From IMG/VR virus record IMGVR_UViG_3300021356_000081, positions 1 to 33,415 of that record: 33,415 nucleotides of DNA. One strand, 5' to 3'. Both the position numbers and the translations under genes were made by a program. Source of the stretch: a virus. Positions 12,246 through 26,900 of this stretch are shown here, piece after piece. Position 1 is the first letter of the stretch. Every line of letters starts with the position of its first letter. The notes below the pieces were generated by a model. The model searched no databases. It worked only from the letters and a program-made list of their open reading frames with translations, and was not told where the DNA came from.

Positions 12246-12401
12246 ATGAGACCAGAAACCCGTCAATCTATGGAAATGTTGTTCGCGGCGAAGTGGAATT
12301 TACCGACAGCAGCCAGGAATTGCAATCTGACGGACAAGGAGATGAAGATCACGTTCAATGAATATTGTCGTTTAAATCCTGCTACATATGAATCTGATTG
12401 A
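12246..12401 (+). CDS. Small HTH-like protein
   Basis: This 51-aa reading frame begins M-R-P-E-T-R-Q-S-M-E-M-L-F-A-A-K-W and continues L-P-T-A-A-R-N-C-N-L-T-D-K-E-M-K. The spacing (helix, A-A-x-x-x-x-L-T turn, helix) resembles a small helix-turn-helix, so DNA or RNA binding is possible but unproven. It overlaps the start of the amidase gene by 14 nt, suggesting coupled translation. A TATAAT at 12209-12214 lies upstream but has no clear -35. It is short, yet the protein-like composition and tight overlap support it. Confidence 0.6.
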   Translation: MRPETRQSMEMLFAAKWNLPTAARNCNLTDKEMKITFNEYCRLNPATYESD

Positions 12402-13416
12402 ACGTATTGAAGAACTTTCGAAGACTTTACCAAGACCTGCTCACAGTGAAGCAGATACTAAAGGTAAATCACTTGTAATTAAATGGATGTTGGAAGACGG
12501 TTTGACCGTCAATAAAGACATCTATGGCAATATAAGAGGTGTTCTTCCTGGTTCTGGTGCCCCTATTGTTACTGGTTCACATACCGATACTGTAGCAACT
12601 GCAGGAAAGTATGATGGTGCTTTGGGTGTTTTGGCAGGATTGGAAGCAGCCAGAAAACTGAAAGGACAATTAAAACATCCACTAGAAATTGTAATCTTCG
12701 ATGACGAAGAAAATACAATGAGTGGATCAGTTGGGTACAGTTCAAAAAAACCTGACATCACGGCATTTATTGAACTTCACGTTGAACAGGGACCAGTATT
12801 GGATGTTCAACAACTTGACATTGGTGTGGTTCAAGGTATTGTGGGACAGAGGAGATGTTCAGTATCTGTGTTTGGTCAAGAGAACCACGCAGGAACAACT
12901 CCTATGAATATGAGAAATGATGCTCTGGTCAAAACAGCAGAGATCATTACTTATATCAATGAGAAGGCACAAGAGGCAGATGGTCTTGTTGCCACTGTAG
13001 GTGTGTTGGATGTGTCTCCCAATGCCTTCAGTGTGATTCCTGGTAGAGTAGACTTTACTCTACAAGTCAGGGATTTGTATGTGGATAAGATGGAAGAGTT
13101 TGTGGAGGATGTCTGTAAGAAGTTTGATCTTAGATATGAGATTCAACATCAATCAGAACCTGCATTGTGTGATCCCACTATCATGGAACATATTTCAGAC
13201 TCCTGTGGTGAATTGATGATGAGATATATTGAGATGCCTTCAAGGGCGTCACACGATGCTCAAAACTTCACCTTCTGCCCTATGGGTATGATCTTTGTCC
13301 CGTCTATTGGTGGAATCAGTCATTCTCCAAAAGAAGACACAACAGACGAAATGTGTTATAATGGTGTGGAGGTTCTTATTGAGACGATAAGACGAATTGA
13401 TGAATCTGCTGGGTAG
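12388..13416 (+). CDS. M20 family amidase (N-carbamoyl-L-amino acid / allantoate amidohydrolase type)
   Basis: This 342-aa protein has the metal-site motifs of the hydantoinase/carbamoylase M20 family: G-S-H65-T-D-T-V, Y-D76-G-A-L-G, D-D-E107-E108, E-L-H131-V-E-Q-G-P, N-H167-A-G-T-T-P and S-H312-S-P-K-E. It also has S-H-D-A-Q-N near 288. Such enzymes cleave carbamoyl or ureido groups, releasing ammonia and CO2, in purine (allantoate) or hydantoin degradation (family knowledge). It is shorter than the usual roughly 400 aa: only about 20 residues separate D-E-E from E-L-H-V-E-Q-G-P, where relatives have about 60 more. All expected ligands are present, so activity is plausible. The exact substrate cannot be told. 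The last codon and stop lie inside tRNA-Tyr. It is probably an auxiliary metabolic gene for nitrogen recycling. Confidence 0.8.
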   Translation: MNLIERIEELSKTLPRPAHSEADTKGKSLVIKWMLEDGLTVNKDIYGNIRGVLPGSGAPIVTGSHTDTVATAGKYDGALGVLAGLEAARKLKGQLKHPLEIVIFDDEENTMSGSVGYSSKKPDITAFIELHVEQGPVLDVQQLDIGVVQGIVGQRRCSVSVFGQENHAGTTPMNMRNDALVKTAEIITYINEKAQEADGLVATVGVLDVSPNAFSVIPGRVDFTLQVRDLYVDKMEEFVEDVCKKFDLRYEIQHQSEPALCDPTIMEHISDSCGELMMRYIEMPSRASHDAQNFTFCPMGMIFVPSIGGISHSPKEDTTDEMCYNGVEVLIETIRRIDESAG

Positions 13417-13492
13417 ATGTCCGAGTGGTTAAAGGAGACGGACTGTAAATCCGTTGGCTATGCCTACGTTGGTTCAAATCCAACTCTACCCA
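13411..13492 (+). tRNA. tRNA-Tyr (GTA)
   Basis: This 82-nt class II tRNA has acceptor GGGTAGA (13411-13417) paired with TCTACCC (13485-13491) and discriminator A13492. The anticodon stem is ACGGA/TCCGT with loop CTGTAAA, giving anticodon GTA at 13445-13447. The T-arm is GTTGG-TTCAAAT-CCAAC, and there is a long variable arm as expected for bacterial tRNA-Tyr. CCA is not encoded. The acceptor stem overlaps the stop codon (13414-13416) of the amidase gene. Confidence 0.93.
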
Positions 13493-13516
13493 CCTTGCGA
13501 GTATGGCGGGCAGTCG

Positions 13517-13582
13517 CTACAGGGGTGTATTGACGTAAGTCCCGCTTTTATGATATAATTCTATATACAATACCCCCTGTAG
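13517..13582 (+). repeat. Inverted repeat bracketing the HNH promoter
   Basis: The left arm (13517-13532, CTACAGGGGTGTATTG) and right arm (13568-13582, CAATACCCCCTGTAG) are complementary except for one extra T in the left arm. The left arm overlaps the promoter -35 and the right arm covers the predicted transcript start and 5' leader, so this could be an operator. Confidence 0.7.
13530..13559 (+). promoter_or_regulatory. Sigma-70-like promoter of the HNH gene
   Basis: TTGACG (13530-13535) and TATAAT (13554-13559) are 18 nt apart. The start would be near 13566, about 24 nt before the HNH ATG. Confidence 0.65.
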
Positions 13583-13589
13583 TAGAATT

Positions 13590-13904
13590 ATGCAAGCTTA
13601 CAGAACAATTCCATTAGATGAATTACTGATTGAGAATACAAACTGGCAATCAAACAAACTCCGTAGACGATTACTCGAAGAAAACGTCAAAGAACATAAG
13701 TGTGAAGTTTGTTCTCTATCAACATGGAATGGAAGACCGATACCGTTAGAATTAGACCATATCAGTGGTGACAAAACTGATAACCGATTAGAAAATCTTC
13801 GTATGTTATGTCCGAACTGTCATGCACAGACAGATCATTATCGGGGACGTAACATGAAGAAATACCGAGCCCGTGTAGTCCAGCGGCAGAGACAAGCGAC
13901 TTAA
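13590..13904 (+). CDS. HNH endonuclease
   Basis: This 104-aa protein has C38-x2-C41, then L-E-L-D56-H57-I-S-G-D, E-N69-L-R-M-L-C74-P-N-C77-H78: the zinc-binding HNH core with all expected residues. Such small HNH enzymes often act as homing endonucleases in T4-like phages, cutting phage DNA near their own insertion site. The gene sits between two tRNA genes and has its own promoter inside an inverted repeat. Residues 94-104 are encoded by the 5' half of tRNA-Leu, and the TAA stop (13902-13904) is the tRNA anticodon itself. The native protein probably ended near K-K-Y-R, so the last 11 residues look like read-through into the tRNA. Free-standing homing activity is inferred. Confidence 0.85.
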   Translation: MQAYRTIPLDELLIENTNWQSNKLRRRLLEENVKEHKCEVCSLSTWNGRPIPLELDHISGDKTDNRLENLRMLCPNCHAQTDHYRGRNMKKYRARVVQRQRQAT

Positions 13905-13941
13905 AATCGTTCCAGGGTCGGTTCGAATCCGACCACGGGTA
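13869..13941 (+). tRNA. tRNA-Leu (TAA), short variable loop
   Basis: This 73-nt tRNA has acceptor GCCCGTG paired with CACGGGT (first pair G-T) and discriminator A13941. The D-stem is GTC/GAC with GG in the loop. The anticodon stem AGCGA/TCGTT carries loop CTTAAAA, with anticodon TAA at 13902-13904. The variable loop is only 5 nt (CCAGG), and the T-arm is GTCGG-TTCGAAT-CCGAC. CCA is not encoded. Leu tRNAs normally have a long variable arm; this one is class I in shape. The anticodon reads UUA. Confidence 0.85.
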
Positions 13942-23942: not shown

Positions 23943-26900
23943 ATGTCATTACTTAGGGCCGACAAGATTGCCAATAGGTTTAATAATACGGGTCCTATTA
24001 TTGTAGGTCCATCGACTGTTAGTGGCAGTTTTAGTATTACTGGGATCGCTACAGTCCTTGGTCTTGGTGTTACACAAAGTATTTTAGTAGGTCAGGCAGT
24101 CACCTCAAACTATCTGACTGTCAATAATGGTGCTGATATATTCAATGCAAACCTGACAGGTATTACCACTGCAGGTATCGTCACTGGTGCAACATATTAC
24201 GGTAACGGTGTAAATCTGACTGGTGTTGTTACATCAGTTACTGCTGGTGCTGGTGTTCAAATCAGTCCTGTTTCTGGTCAAGGTAGAGTCACAATTTCTG
24301 CTACTGGTGTTGCGGTTGCGGGATATGCAACTAATGCTGGTCTTGCAACTGATGTCAAAGGTGGTGTAGCTGGTGCAGTTCTGTATCAGATTGGACCAGA
24401 TGATACTGGATTCACTGCGGCTGGTTCTGCTGGAGAAATTCTTCAGTCAAACGGTACTGGAACACCCACATGGGTCAGTCTTGCAGCAATCAATGTATCA
24501 TATGCAGATTCTGCAGGTATTTCTACCAACCTGAAGGGTGGTTCTGCTGGCAGAATTCCTGTTCAAAGTGGTATAGATCAGACAACATTCATAAATGTGG
24601 GTCAGTCTGGCAACATTCTTCTTGCTCAAGGCACATCTACCCCAATCTTTATTGATCCTAAGGCCCAACTTGATGTAAGAAGAGCAAGATTTGCTGGTAT
24701 TGCAACCAATTTACAGAGTGGTTACATCTCATCCGCAACTTCATTGGAAGTTATTGGTGTCACCACACTTGGTGTTGCTACTGCAAAGACACTAGATGTT
24801 ACTGGTGTCACCACTACTCATGACTTAAGAGTTACTGGTGTCGCTACCATAAGTCAATTAGAGATCGGTGAAGAGGGTGTATTAGTTGGTATCACCTCCA
24901 TCCTCGATGAAGATGATATGGTGTCAAACAGAGCTGATGCTCTGGCGACACAACAATCTATTCGTGCATATGTAGATGCAACCAGAACTGGTATCGGACT
25001 GACATTCGATGCTGATACTGGTACAGGTACAATTGATCTTGACGAAGAGACCTTCACCATCGAAGGTACAGCGAACGAGATCTACACCATTGGTCTTGGT
25101 AATACAGTCACAGTTGGTCTGGATACTAACGTCACGGTTCCAAACAACCTGGTAGTTTCTGGTTTCTCCTCTCTGTCTGGACTGACCACAATTACAGGTC
25201 AGTTAGGTGTCACTGGTATCACTACCACACAGTTCTTAGATGTCACTGGTGTTGGTACAGTTCAAACTCTTGGTGTCACTGGAGTTGCTACTGCACAGTT
25301 CCTTGAGGTAACTGGTGTATCAACGATTGCAACACTGGGTGTCAGTGGAGTTACCACAACTCAGTTCCTGGAAGTCACTGGTGTTTCTACATTCCAGGGT
25401 GATGTAACTCTGGGTGCTGGTGTTACCTTATTCAATGGGGATTTTGAGAATTCAAATCTGACTGGTGTCACTACCGTACAAAATCTAGGTGTCACTGGTA
25501 TCACCACAACTCATGCATTAGAGGTAACTGGTGTCTCAACACTCACTGGTTATGTAACTGCTGGAACTGGATTGACAGTTGCTGGAACTGGTATTACTGC
25601 AACGACACTGAATGTCACTGGGTTCTCTACACAGACAGGATTTGCAACATTTGGAAGTTCGATCAACGTAGCTAATCAATTCTATGCAGGTGGTATTTCA
25701 TCTGTTGGTGCAGCAATCACGATGTTCCCATCCACGGGTATCGTCAGTGCTACAGCATTCTATGGTGATGGTTCAAACCTGACTGGTGTTGTTGGTCTGG
25801 TATCCGTCACCAACATCCTGTTTGTCACACCTGATGGAAACGATGACAACGATGGTTATCTTGTATCGACTGCAAAGAGAACTGTTGGTTCTGCTCTGAC
25901 AGTTGCAGAAGCTTCTACAGTCATCAAGATTTCTGCTGGTAATTATACAGAAAATAACCCAATTGTTCTTCCAGAACAGGTCACACTCCTCGGTGATAGT
26001 TTAAGAGAGGTATCACTCATCCCACAAAACGCAGATCAGGATATGATCTACGTTGCAAATGGTAGTTATGTAGAAAATATATCCTTCACAGGATCACTGG
26101 ACGAAGGTAAAGCGATTATTGCATTTAATCCTAATAAGCCATCTTACGTTACTCAGGGCCCTTACATCCGTAACTGCACCAACTTCATCTCAAATAGTAT
26201 TGGTATGAAGATTGATGGCAAACATGTCATCGGTGCAACAAAGGCGATGAACGTCGATAGTTACACTCAACTCAATCAAGGTGGTATTGGTGTTTCGATC
26301 TCCAATGATGGTTATGCTCAGTTAGTTTCTATCTTCACGATATATAACGATCAAAGTATTGTTTGTATCAATGGTGGTCAATGTGACCTGACTAACTCCA
26401 ACTCTTCCTTCGGTAGATTAGGTTTAGTTGCTGACGGTATTGGTTCAAAACAATTCTTAGGTACTGTCACTACTGCAACTGCTGCTAACTCCCAAACATT
26501 TACACTGAATGTAGGTGTTGGAACTCTGGGCATCACCACCGCTGACTACACGGCAAGCACAGGTATTATCACGATTACAACTAATGCTAACCACGGTTTC
26601 AATGAAGGTCAACCTGTAGAGATCAGAGATCTCGAATTCCAGTGTTCAAGTGGTCCTGGTATTGTCACATTCCCATCTGGAAACTATGGATATGTCTTTA
26701 CTGTAGACGCAGTCGGTGCAGCCAATAGTTTCTCAGCTTATGTTGGTGTCTCAACTCTGGCACATGATTATGTAAGAGCAGGTGTCACATCAACGTTTGT
26801 CACAAGACCTTATGATGGACAAGTGGCATATGTCGATGAATTATATAATTCTATTGAAGGTGTCACCATCACTAATGGTGGTTCAGGTTATACTACACCA

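Follow-up and report, generated by a model that had tools for sequence, protein, structure and literature searches.

The bulged inverted repeat at positions 13517 to 13582 of the virus record analysed here, the full 33,415 bases of which we call the window, is probably one copy of a portable, cis-acting leader RNA belonging to a homing-endonuclease cassette of T4-like cyanophages, which would place the nuclease under translational control of the type described for I-TevI, segB and mobE. This reading draws on comparison with relatives, predicted RNA folds and analogy; it agrees in part with the earlier note: the region does look like an element that regulates the nuclease gene and is organized about a promoter-like box. 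Similar DNA was found in 453 phage records, 354 of them named for Synechococcus, and two phages that are close to the window at the place of the leader, S-B43 and S-B05, are classed as Kyanoviridae.

The repeat has the form claimed for it, with one bulge. Arm1 (13517-13531, plus strand; CTACAGGGGTGTATT) can be read as CTACAGGGG(T)GTATT, where the bracketed T is the bulge, and arm2 (13569-13582, plus strand; AATACCCCCTGTAG), its partner in the helix that we call P2, is followed by the start codon 7 nt further on; together they form 15 Watson-Crick pairs interrupted by the single bulged T. No other helix in the window reaches 13 pairs with a loop of 18-62 nt and no more than one bulge, where 40 first-order resamples gave on average 0.475 such helices (0.125 for at least 14 pairs), and a general repeat finder with gapless extension reported no repeat there at its settings. 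As RNA, the segment 13510-13592 has a predicted folding energy of -26.1 kcal/mol, where shuffled sequences average -14.5 (z -3.9; none of 200 shuffles as good), and the longer segment 13497-13600 gives a weaker result (z -1.98; 7 of 200 shuffles as good). Taken alone, the repeat is only modestly unlikely, and what settles the matter is comparison with relatives. Within the window, other copies of arm1 or arm2 were limited to matches with three mismatches, in numbers that shuffles also reached. The search for the arm sequence in other phages that had been proposed, run with exact arm1 plus the -35 against viral contigs, returned no match because the arms differ between copies.

What recurs is the arrangement, GGGC[AG]-arm1-GTAAG[TA]CCC-promoter box-arm2-ATG, which stands ahead of homing-endonuclease-like ORFs of several kinds, both in contigs from IMG/VR and in the cyanophages S-B05, RB11-B, S-SRM01 and Sf-CH5. 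A scan for TTGACGTAAGTCCC returned 117 stretches, 21 of which contain the module on reading (two of these being cut by the end of the stretch); scans for GGGCAGTC...GTAAGTCCC and for its TAAGACCC variant returned 42 and 91 stretches, chance matches included in both. An RNA model found leaders of this first type (type 1) in three of six named records, S-B05 (two), RB11-B (two) and S-SRM01 (one, together with two leaders of a second type described below), and none in RN05-S, S-B43 or Sf-FS3; Sf-CH5 has one. Elsewhere in the window the model gave one further, weak match (26087-26185, minus strand, E 0.11), which was taken as chance. Pattern matches in bacteria and archaea, at least 117 stretches, were likewise left out of all counts as chance, since an estimate made by hand from 17 fixed bases, 31 spacings and 257 billion bases predicts about 900 of them, although there may be a true copy in their number. 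Rfam gave no match to the leader up to E 1 in the window segment 12000-15000 or up to E 0.5 at 16 loci. A search of titles and the beginnings of abstracts, with most subscription journals outside its scope, found no account of such a leader in cyanophages among the papers listed, and neither 'hairpin' nor 'promoter' appears in the passages of PMC10448857 consulted.

The genes behind the module are diverse. Among the first ten ORFs, five had a Pfam match at E up to 0.01 (two to HNH, just under the cut-off, one each to HNH_3 and NUMOD3 above it, and one to an I-HmuI NUMOD-like family below it) and five did not; in a second scan of ten ORFs at E up to 1, eight of them behind type 1 leaders and two repeated, the type 1 ORFs that exceeded the cut-off matched HNH_3 (S-B05) and NUMOD3 (L096, L445). 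PHROGs assigned the ORFs of L004 and L161:4186 and a short piece of that of L205 to HNH endonucleases, and matched those of L222 and L161:2508 weakly to homing endonucleases, while the ORFs of L097:7097, L204:1562 and L165 matched no Pfam or PHROG family. A large group of ORFs begins with YYTYAYLREDGTPYYIGKG (the YYTYAYLRED group); by motif reading we take these to be GIY-YIG proteins, a family that Pfam did not report in the ORFs scanned. By eye, the ORFs of three pairs (L095/L165, L204:1562/L212 and L205/L097:7170) have their first 20-25 or so codons in common and then diverge, a pattern that looks as if protein bodies had been swapped behind a fixed leader and N-terminus.

Leaders of this type contain a second helix, P1, which overlaps arm1. 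The -35 element TTGAC reported in the earlier note is indeed present, but that reading overlooked its role as part of the 3' strand of P1, where it pairs with GGGCAGTC at 13508-13515. According to the pair counts in our alignments, the 5' strand of P1 in the window (13506-13515, plus strand) consists of a basal GCGGG, the CA side of an internal loop and GTC of the mid stem, and the 3' strand (13530-13545, plus strand), which co-changes with it in relatives, of TTGAC, the GTAAG side of the internal loop, T, CCC and GC; arm1 itself forms the apical stem and loop between them, TACA-GGGG-TGTA (13518-13529, plus strand). P1 thus comprises a variable basal stem with GGG/CCC, a conserved and unequal internal loop, C[AG]/GUAAG[UA] (2 versus 6 nt), a covarying mid stem, which immediately after GGGCA changes from TTGAC/GTCAA in the window to GTTGC/GCAAC in relatives, and an apical stem capped mostly by GGGG or UGGC. 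In an alignment of 31 leaders (A1), made up of 29 distinct leaders and two copies from L161 added by hand, with L166:327 left out, the conserved elements are GGG, TAAG[TA]CC, TAAATA and ATG, and the arms are not conserved; a quick fold placed GGGG in the apical loop in 17 of the 31, TGGC in 9 and TGCC in one, and delimited the loop wrongly in the other 4.

Across A1, 90.3% of the 340 cells of P1 are paired, compared with 76.6% in shuffles (none of 500 as high) and at most 50.8% in slid controls, although there is some circularity in this figure and in the conservation of GTAAG, because entry to A1, except for the L161 pair, required at least four of the five mid-stem pairs of P1 and GTAAG[TA]CC. 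Cells in which both partners have changed number 51, against 22.8 in shuffles. Other measures were closer to chance: 7 of 11 pairs have changed on both sides against 5.6 in shuffles, a value equalled by 39 of 500 and so not well beyond chance, and the number of further pair types was matched by 9 of 500 shuffles for P1 in A1 and by 46 of 500 in the 22-row alignment introduced below. The two outermost basal pairs are often open (15 of 30 and 11 of 31 rows).

As a check on the circularity of A1 we used a set of loci chosen by protein, with one YYTYAYLRED-group ORF as the reference for similarity; 79 of its 80 loci could be used (L503 was too short), and these hold 55 distinct upstream regions, 31 with the P1 motif and 8 more with the second architecture. 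When a hairpin was called if at most 10 of 200 shuffles folded as well, a threshold chosen after the first hairpin results, 38 of the 55 regions had a hairpin, every one of them with TAAATA before arm2; among the 14 without a hairpin TAAATA was present in 4 and absent from 10, and of three regions with a weak hairpin one had both P1 and the box and two had neither. Swapping P1 strands between 30 of the 31 regions (L487, with no GGG in range, was left out) reduced the proportion with all five pairs from 28 of 30 to 49%, which is a weak test since most strands belong to one class.

The second architecture reads arm1, terminator-like hairpin, TATAAATA, arm2 and ATG, with a TAAATA box between the arms. 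It occurs ahead of homing-endonuclease-like ORFs at L442, L446, L448, L457, L462, L480, L494, L506, L521, L522, L527, L528 and L529, and also in S-SRM01, B23 and S-B68; two of the S-SRM01 ORFs behind it match PHROG homing-endonuclease families. In most leaders of this second type arm1 is, by eye, enclosed by a short helix, for example CCTGA/TCAGG or GCTTAT/ATAAGC. The similar ORFs of RN05-S, S-N03, ACG-2014f and MC09 are counter-examples, in that the upstream folds inspected for them showed no such leader.

In P2 the arms differ wholly in sequence between copies, and yet the complementarity of arm1 and arm2 is retained. Among 29 distinct leaders the arm1 motif is CTTGGCGG in 12, AGGGGTG in 8, TCTGGGGAG in 4 and GGGGGCG in 2, with TAGGGGTA, TTGCCGG and GTGGGGGC seen once each. 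In these 29 leaders the arms of the same copy form a duplex of -25.8 kcal/mol on average, compared with -15.2 when arm2 is taken from another arm class, although in 5 of the 29 some cross-class arm2 does as well or better; 50 of 76 distinct candidates (29 distinct loops) were kept for this comparison, and among the 26 set aside are the L007 remnant and the true leaders L161 and L166, in which GGG had been misassigned. In alignment A2, whose 22 rows were picked by hand by arm class and include the out-of-register L500, 91.2% of P2 cells are paired and in 8 of 14 pairs both partners have changed. Counted over P1 and P2, double-change cells number 63, whereas shuffles give 23.4 and slid controls no more than 17. 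A third alignment (A3, 17 rows of GGGG-loop leaders) was not counted, as the arms of its sub-classes are out of register. By eye, arm2 ends about 0-12 nt ahead of the ATG, a closeness that is kept in dissimilar arm classes. Fold and covariation thus predict a helix whose 3' arm lies over the translation initiation region, which is a feature of the I-TevI, segB and mobE type of control. P2 takes from P1 the 5' half of the apical stem and the apical loop, where arm2 pairs, and the two helices should therefore be unable to form fully at the same time. Predicted energies are -22 to -34 kcal/mol for entire leaders, compared with -11 to -22 for their P1 portion, and P2 is present in the complete folds that we inspected; P2 should therefore win at equilibrium.

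Between P1 and arm2 lies a promoter-like box. The TTGACG-18-TATAAT promoter of the earlier note is there as a match at 11 of 12 positions; on its own, however, the match is weak, because 6 kb hold 26 promoter-like sites where 19.1 (sd 4.7) are expected. In the window the box reads TATGATATAAT, an extended -10 (13549-13559, plus strand), which, if used, would put the transcript start at approximately 13566 on the plus strand; RNA from 13566 to 13610 folds to only -4 kcal/mol. Downstream of P1 the relatives carry TGNTATAAT and/or TAAATA. The latter, which in relatives stands just downstream of the position of the -10, is found between P1 and arm2 in 30 of the 31 aligned leaders, the window copy being the single exception; ATAAATA occurs in 22 of the 31, TATAAT in 14 and an extended -10 (TGNTANA) in 24. 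The cyanophage late promoter is given as NATAAATA (PMC2984593), with TAAATA as its core, and the box of the leaders resembles it. Because it has no TAAATA, the window copy may be served by a sigma70-like promoter, or by none. A simple motif test found a Shine-Dalgarno sequence in none of the 31 leaders; GAAGA stands beside the ATG in several, outside the tested span. Where type 1 leaders have an upstream ORF, it is co-directional in 27 of 28, and in 22 of the 28 GGG follows its stop codon within 3-13 nt, so that, judging from gene order, read-through into the leader would be expected. In the window the upstream neighbour is a tRNA.

The leader of the window stands in a row of genes formed by an M20-type peptidase (12388-13416; PF01546, 89.6 bits), a tRNA-Tyr (GTA; 13411-13494, plus strand) directly upstream of it, the leader, the HNH ORF and a tRNA-Leu (TAA; 13869-13941, plus strand). 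The HNH ORF (13590-13904, plus strand) encodes 104 aa, matches PF13392 at 28.1 bits (cut-off 24.8) and PF01844 at 23.7 bits (cut-off 21.4), and is probably a free-standing homing endonuclease. Its last 36 nt (13869-13904) lie within the tRNA-Leu, the 5' half of which shares its sequence with the end of the ORF; the HNH-like ORF of L004 likewise terminates within its own tRNA-Leu (L004 2358-2375), and an HNH relative in S-CRM01 (L531) adjoins a tRNA-Leu. The tRNA-Leu call in the window is 73 nt long and has no space for the long variable arm usual in tRNA-Leu, the calls in the relatives scanned being 84-88 nt; S-SRM01 has a stretch similar to it (92% over 75 nt). The 3' end of the peptidase gene has a DNA match in L004-L006 and none in the loci of RN05-S, S-B43 and S-B05.

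At this conserved site L005 (flanks 94.5-95.3% identical) and L006 (92.7-94.5%) have neither tRNA-Tyr nor leader nor HNH ORF, which amounts to a presence/absence polymorphism. In L004 the site is occupied by a similar leader and a different HNH-like ORF, which only faintly resembles the HNH protein of the window (E 0.013), and L007 has a 50-nt remnant of the leader ahead of its tRNA-Leu. Among the 13 nearest relatives, L004-L016, ranked by the neighbouring 104-aa gene, the full leader is thus confined to L004 and the remnant to L007, the RNA model finding no leader in the remaining 11. This distribution suggests that leader and nuclease are gained and lost together, as would be expected of a homing-endonuclease cassette. 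Between tRNA-Tyr and leader, a tRNA-Leu-like stretch (13496-13509, plus strand; TGCGAGTATGGCGG) agrees in 13 of 14 letters with the 5' end of the tRNA-Leu of L005 (L005 2139-2152). It is possibly a remnant of the insertion target, a match so short that it could also be due to chance, and would point to a cassette that inserted into a tRNA-Leu gene or took its place.

The earlier note had linked the repeat to the HNH gene and its promoter, such that relatives with the gene and promoter should not be without it. At nine loci with distant relatives of this HNH protein, S-CRM01 among them, there was no P1 motif or significant hairpin before the assumed start, although at three of them, L027, L028 and S-CRM01, the test is weak because the assumed starts are not start codons; the TAAATA box is kept at three, L069, L073 and L082, and the RNA model found no type 1 leader in the stretch of S-CRM01 examined. 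We conclude that the leader is not tied to this HNH family. An 84-nt leader is identical in L161:2427 and L097:7170, and the proteins behind it have no significant similarity (best E 2.1); CTTGGCGG arms precede both the HNH_3 protein of S-B05 and the NUMOD3 protein of L096, again with no similarity (best E 0.39); and within the YYTYAYLRED group similar proteins carry several dissimilar arm classes.

These observations bear on the proposals that the repeat is a DNA operator, either for a dimeric regulator or for the nuclease acting as its own repressor, or else a site that the nuclease recognizes or cuts. An operator would account for symmetric arms that straddle a promoter-like box, and PMC2988022 describes I-TevI as a repressor of its own late promoter; a site for a DNA-binding protein would, however, hardly be identical ahead of two dissimilar proteins and dissimilar ahead of similar ones, nor does it call for pairing that is kept through changes on both sides. 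The predicted arm duplexes include at least one G-U pair in 26 of 29 leaders, some outside the core of the arms, and the unequal internal loop of P1 (2 versus 6 nt) suits RNA better than a dimer site. We therefore found no support for operator or autoregulation, and regard them as improbable. More improbable still is a homing target or cut site. Homing endonucleases act close to their own genes and the module sits at an insertion point beside a tRNA, but L005 and L006, in which the site is empty, lack the repeat along with the nuclease, and the same kind of leader occurs at many different genomic places.

It is somewhat less unlikely, but still unlikely, that the element serves RNA processing or transcription control only, with P1 or P2 as a ribonuclease site or attenuator and translation not the target. 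The P1 region by itself folds to -11 to -22 kcal/mol, and the second leader type has a terminator-like hairpin between its arms; against this, no good U-run follows P1 in type 1 leaders by eye, and processing has no need of an arm2 kept near the start codon in dissimilar arm classes.

If the preferred reading, a leader RNA that controls translation, is correct, read-through messages from the upstream gene would hold both arms, fold P2 and bury the translation start, and no nuclease would be made from them, while transcripts that start from the box, downstream of P1 and ahead of arm2, would lack arm1, remain open and be translated. The nuclease would then be produced only with the box promoter on, and for most relatives the box suggests a late time of expression. 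As the RNA is transcribed, P1 would be the first helix to fold and would offer its GGGG loop to the CCCC of arm2, so as either to nucleate P2 or to hold a competing 'on' state. A more far-reaching version, which is possible but which we put forward tentatively and rate well below the leader itself, is a mobile two-state RNA switch, in which P1, with its internal loop C[AG]/GUAAG[UA] and its GGGG toehold loop, and P2 would be alternative folds, the input would be either a protein of phage or host bound at the internal loop or the translation of the upstream gene, and the cassette would have been captured by dissimilar homing endonucleases with arm pairs exchanged as units.

The findings suggest that control by a hairpin with an embedded promoter, known from single homing endonucleases of T4, exists in cyanophages as a sequence-conserved leader common to several nuclease families; if so, the control element itself would be a unit passed between genes. 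The leader could also be used to detect homing endonucleases that lack annotation, it predicts the stage of infection at which they are made, and P1 allows a direct test of whether an RNA switch is at work.

HEARO, the omega RNA of IscB, is also a structured RNA ahead of an HNH gene, but the leader described here has no Rfam match, is about 90 nt long, stands before an HNH protein of 104 aa and also precedes non-HNH ORFs. In seg43(25) of Aeromonas phage 25, a very stable predicted hairpin likewise lies just ahead of a homing endonuclease gene, but there, according to section 12 of PMC2988022, it leaves the ribosome site free, whereas arm2 of the cyanophage leaders ends about 0-12 nt before the ATG. 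The closest parallels are those reported in the same section of PMC2988022 for I-TevI, I-TevII, I-TevIII and segB of T4 and mobE of Aeh1, in which a hairpin covers the translation start and a promoter is placed so that the gene's own transcripts lack the 5' arm. The cyanophage module is not a plain member of this group, since a Shine-Dalgarno motif is found in none of its 31 leaders; it differs as well in being conserved in sequence and common to different kinds of ORF, with arms that differ while their pairing is kept, and in its additional conserved helix P1, which overlaps arm1 and has no counterpart in the T4 account as given in that section. It shares with I-TevI, segB and mobE a predicted hairpin over the start of a homing endonuclease and, in the window, it lies among tRNA genes, as segB does in T4 (PMC2988022, Table 1); a late promoter between its arms, as in those systems, is a candidate feature, with TAAATA in 30 of the 31 aligned leaders and not in the window copy.
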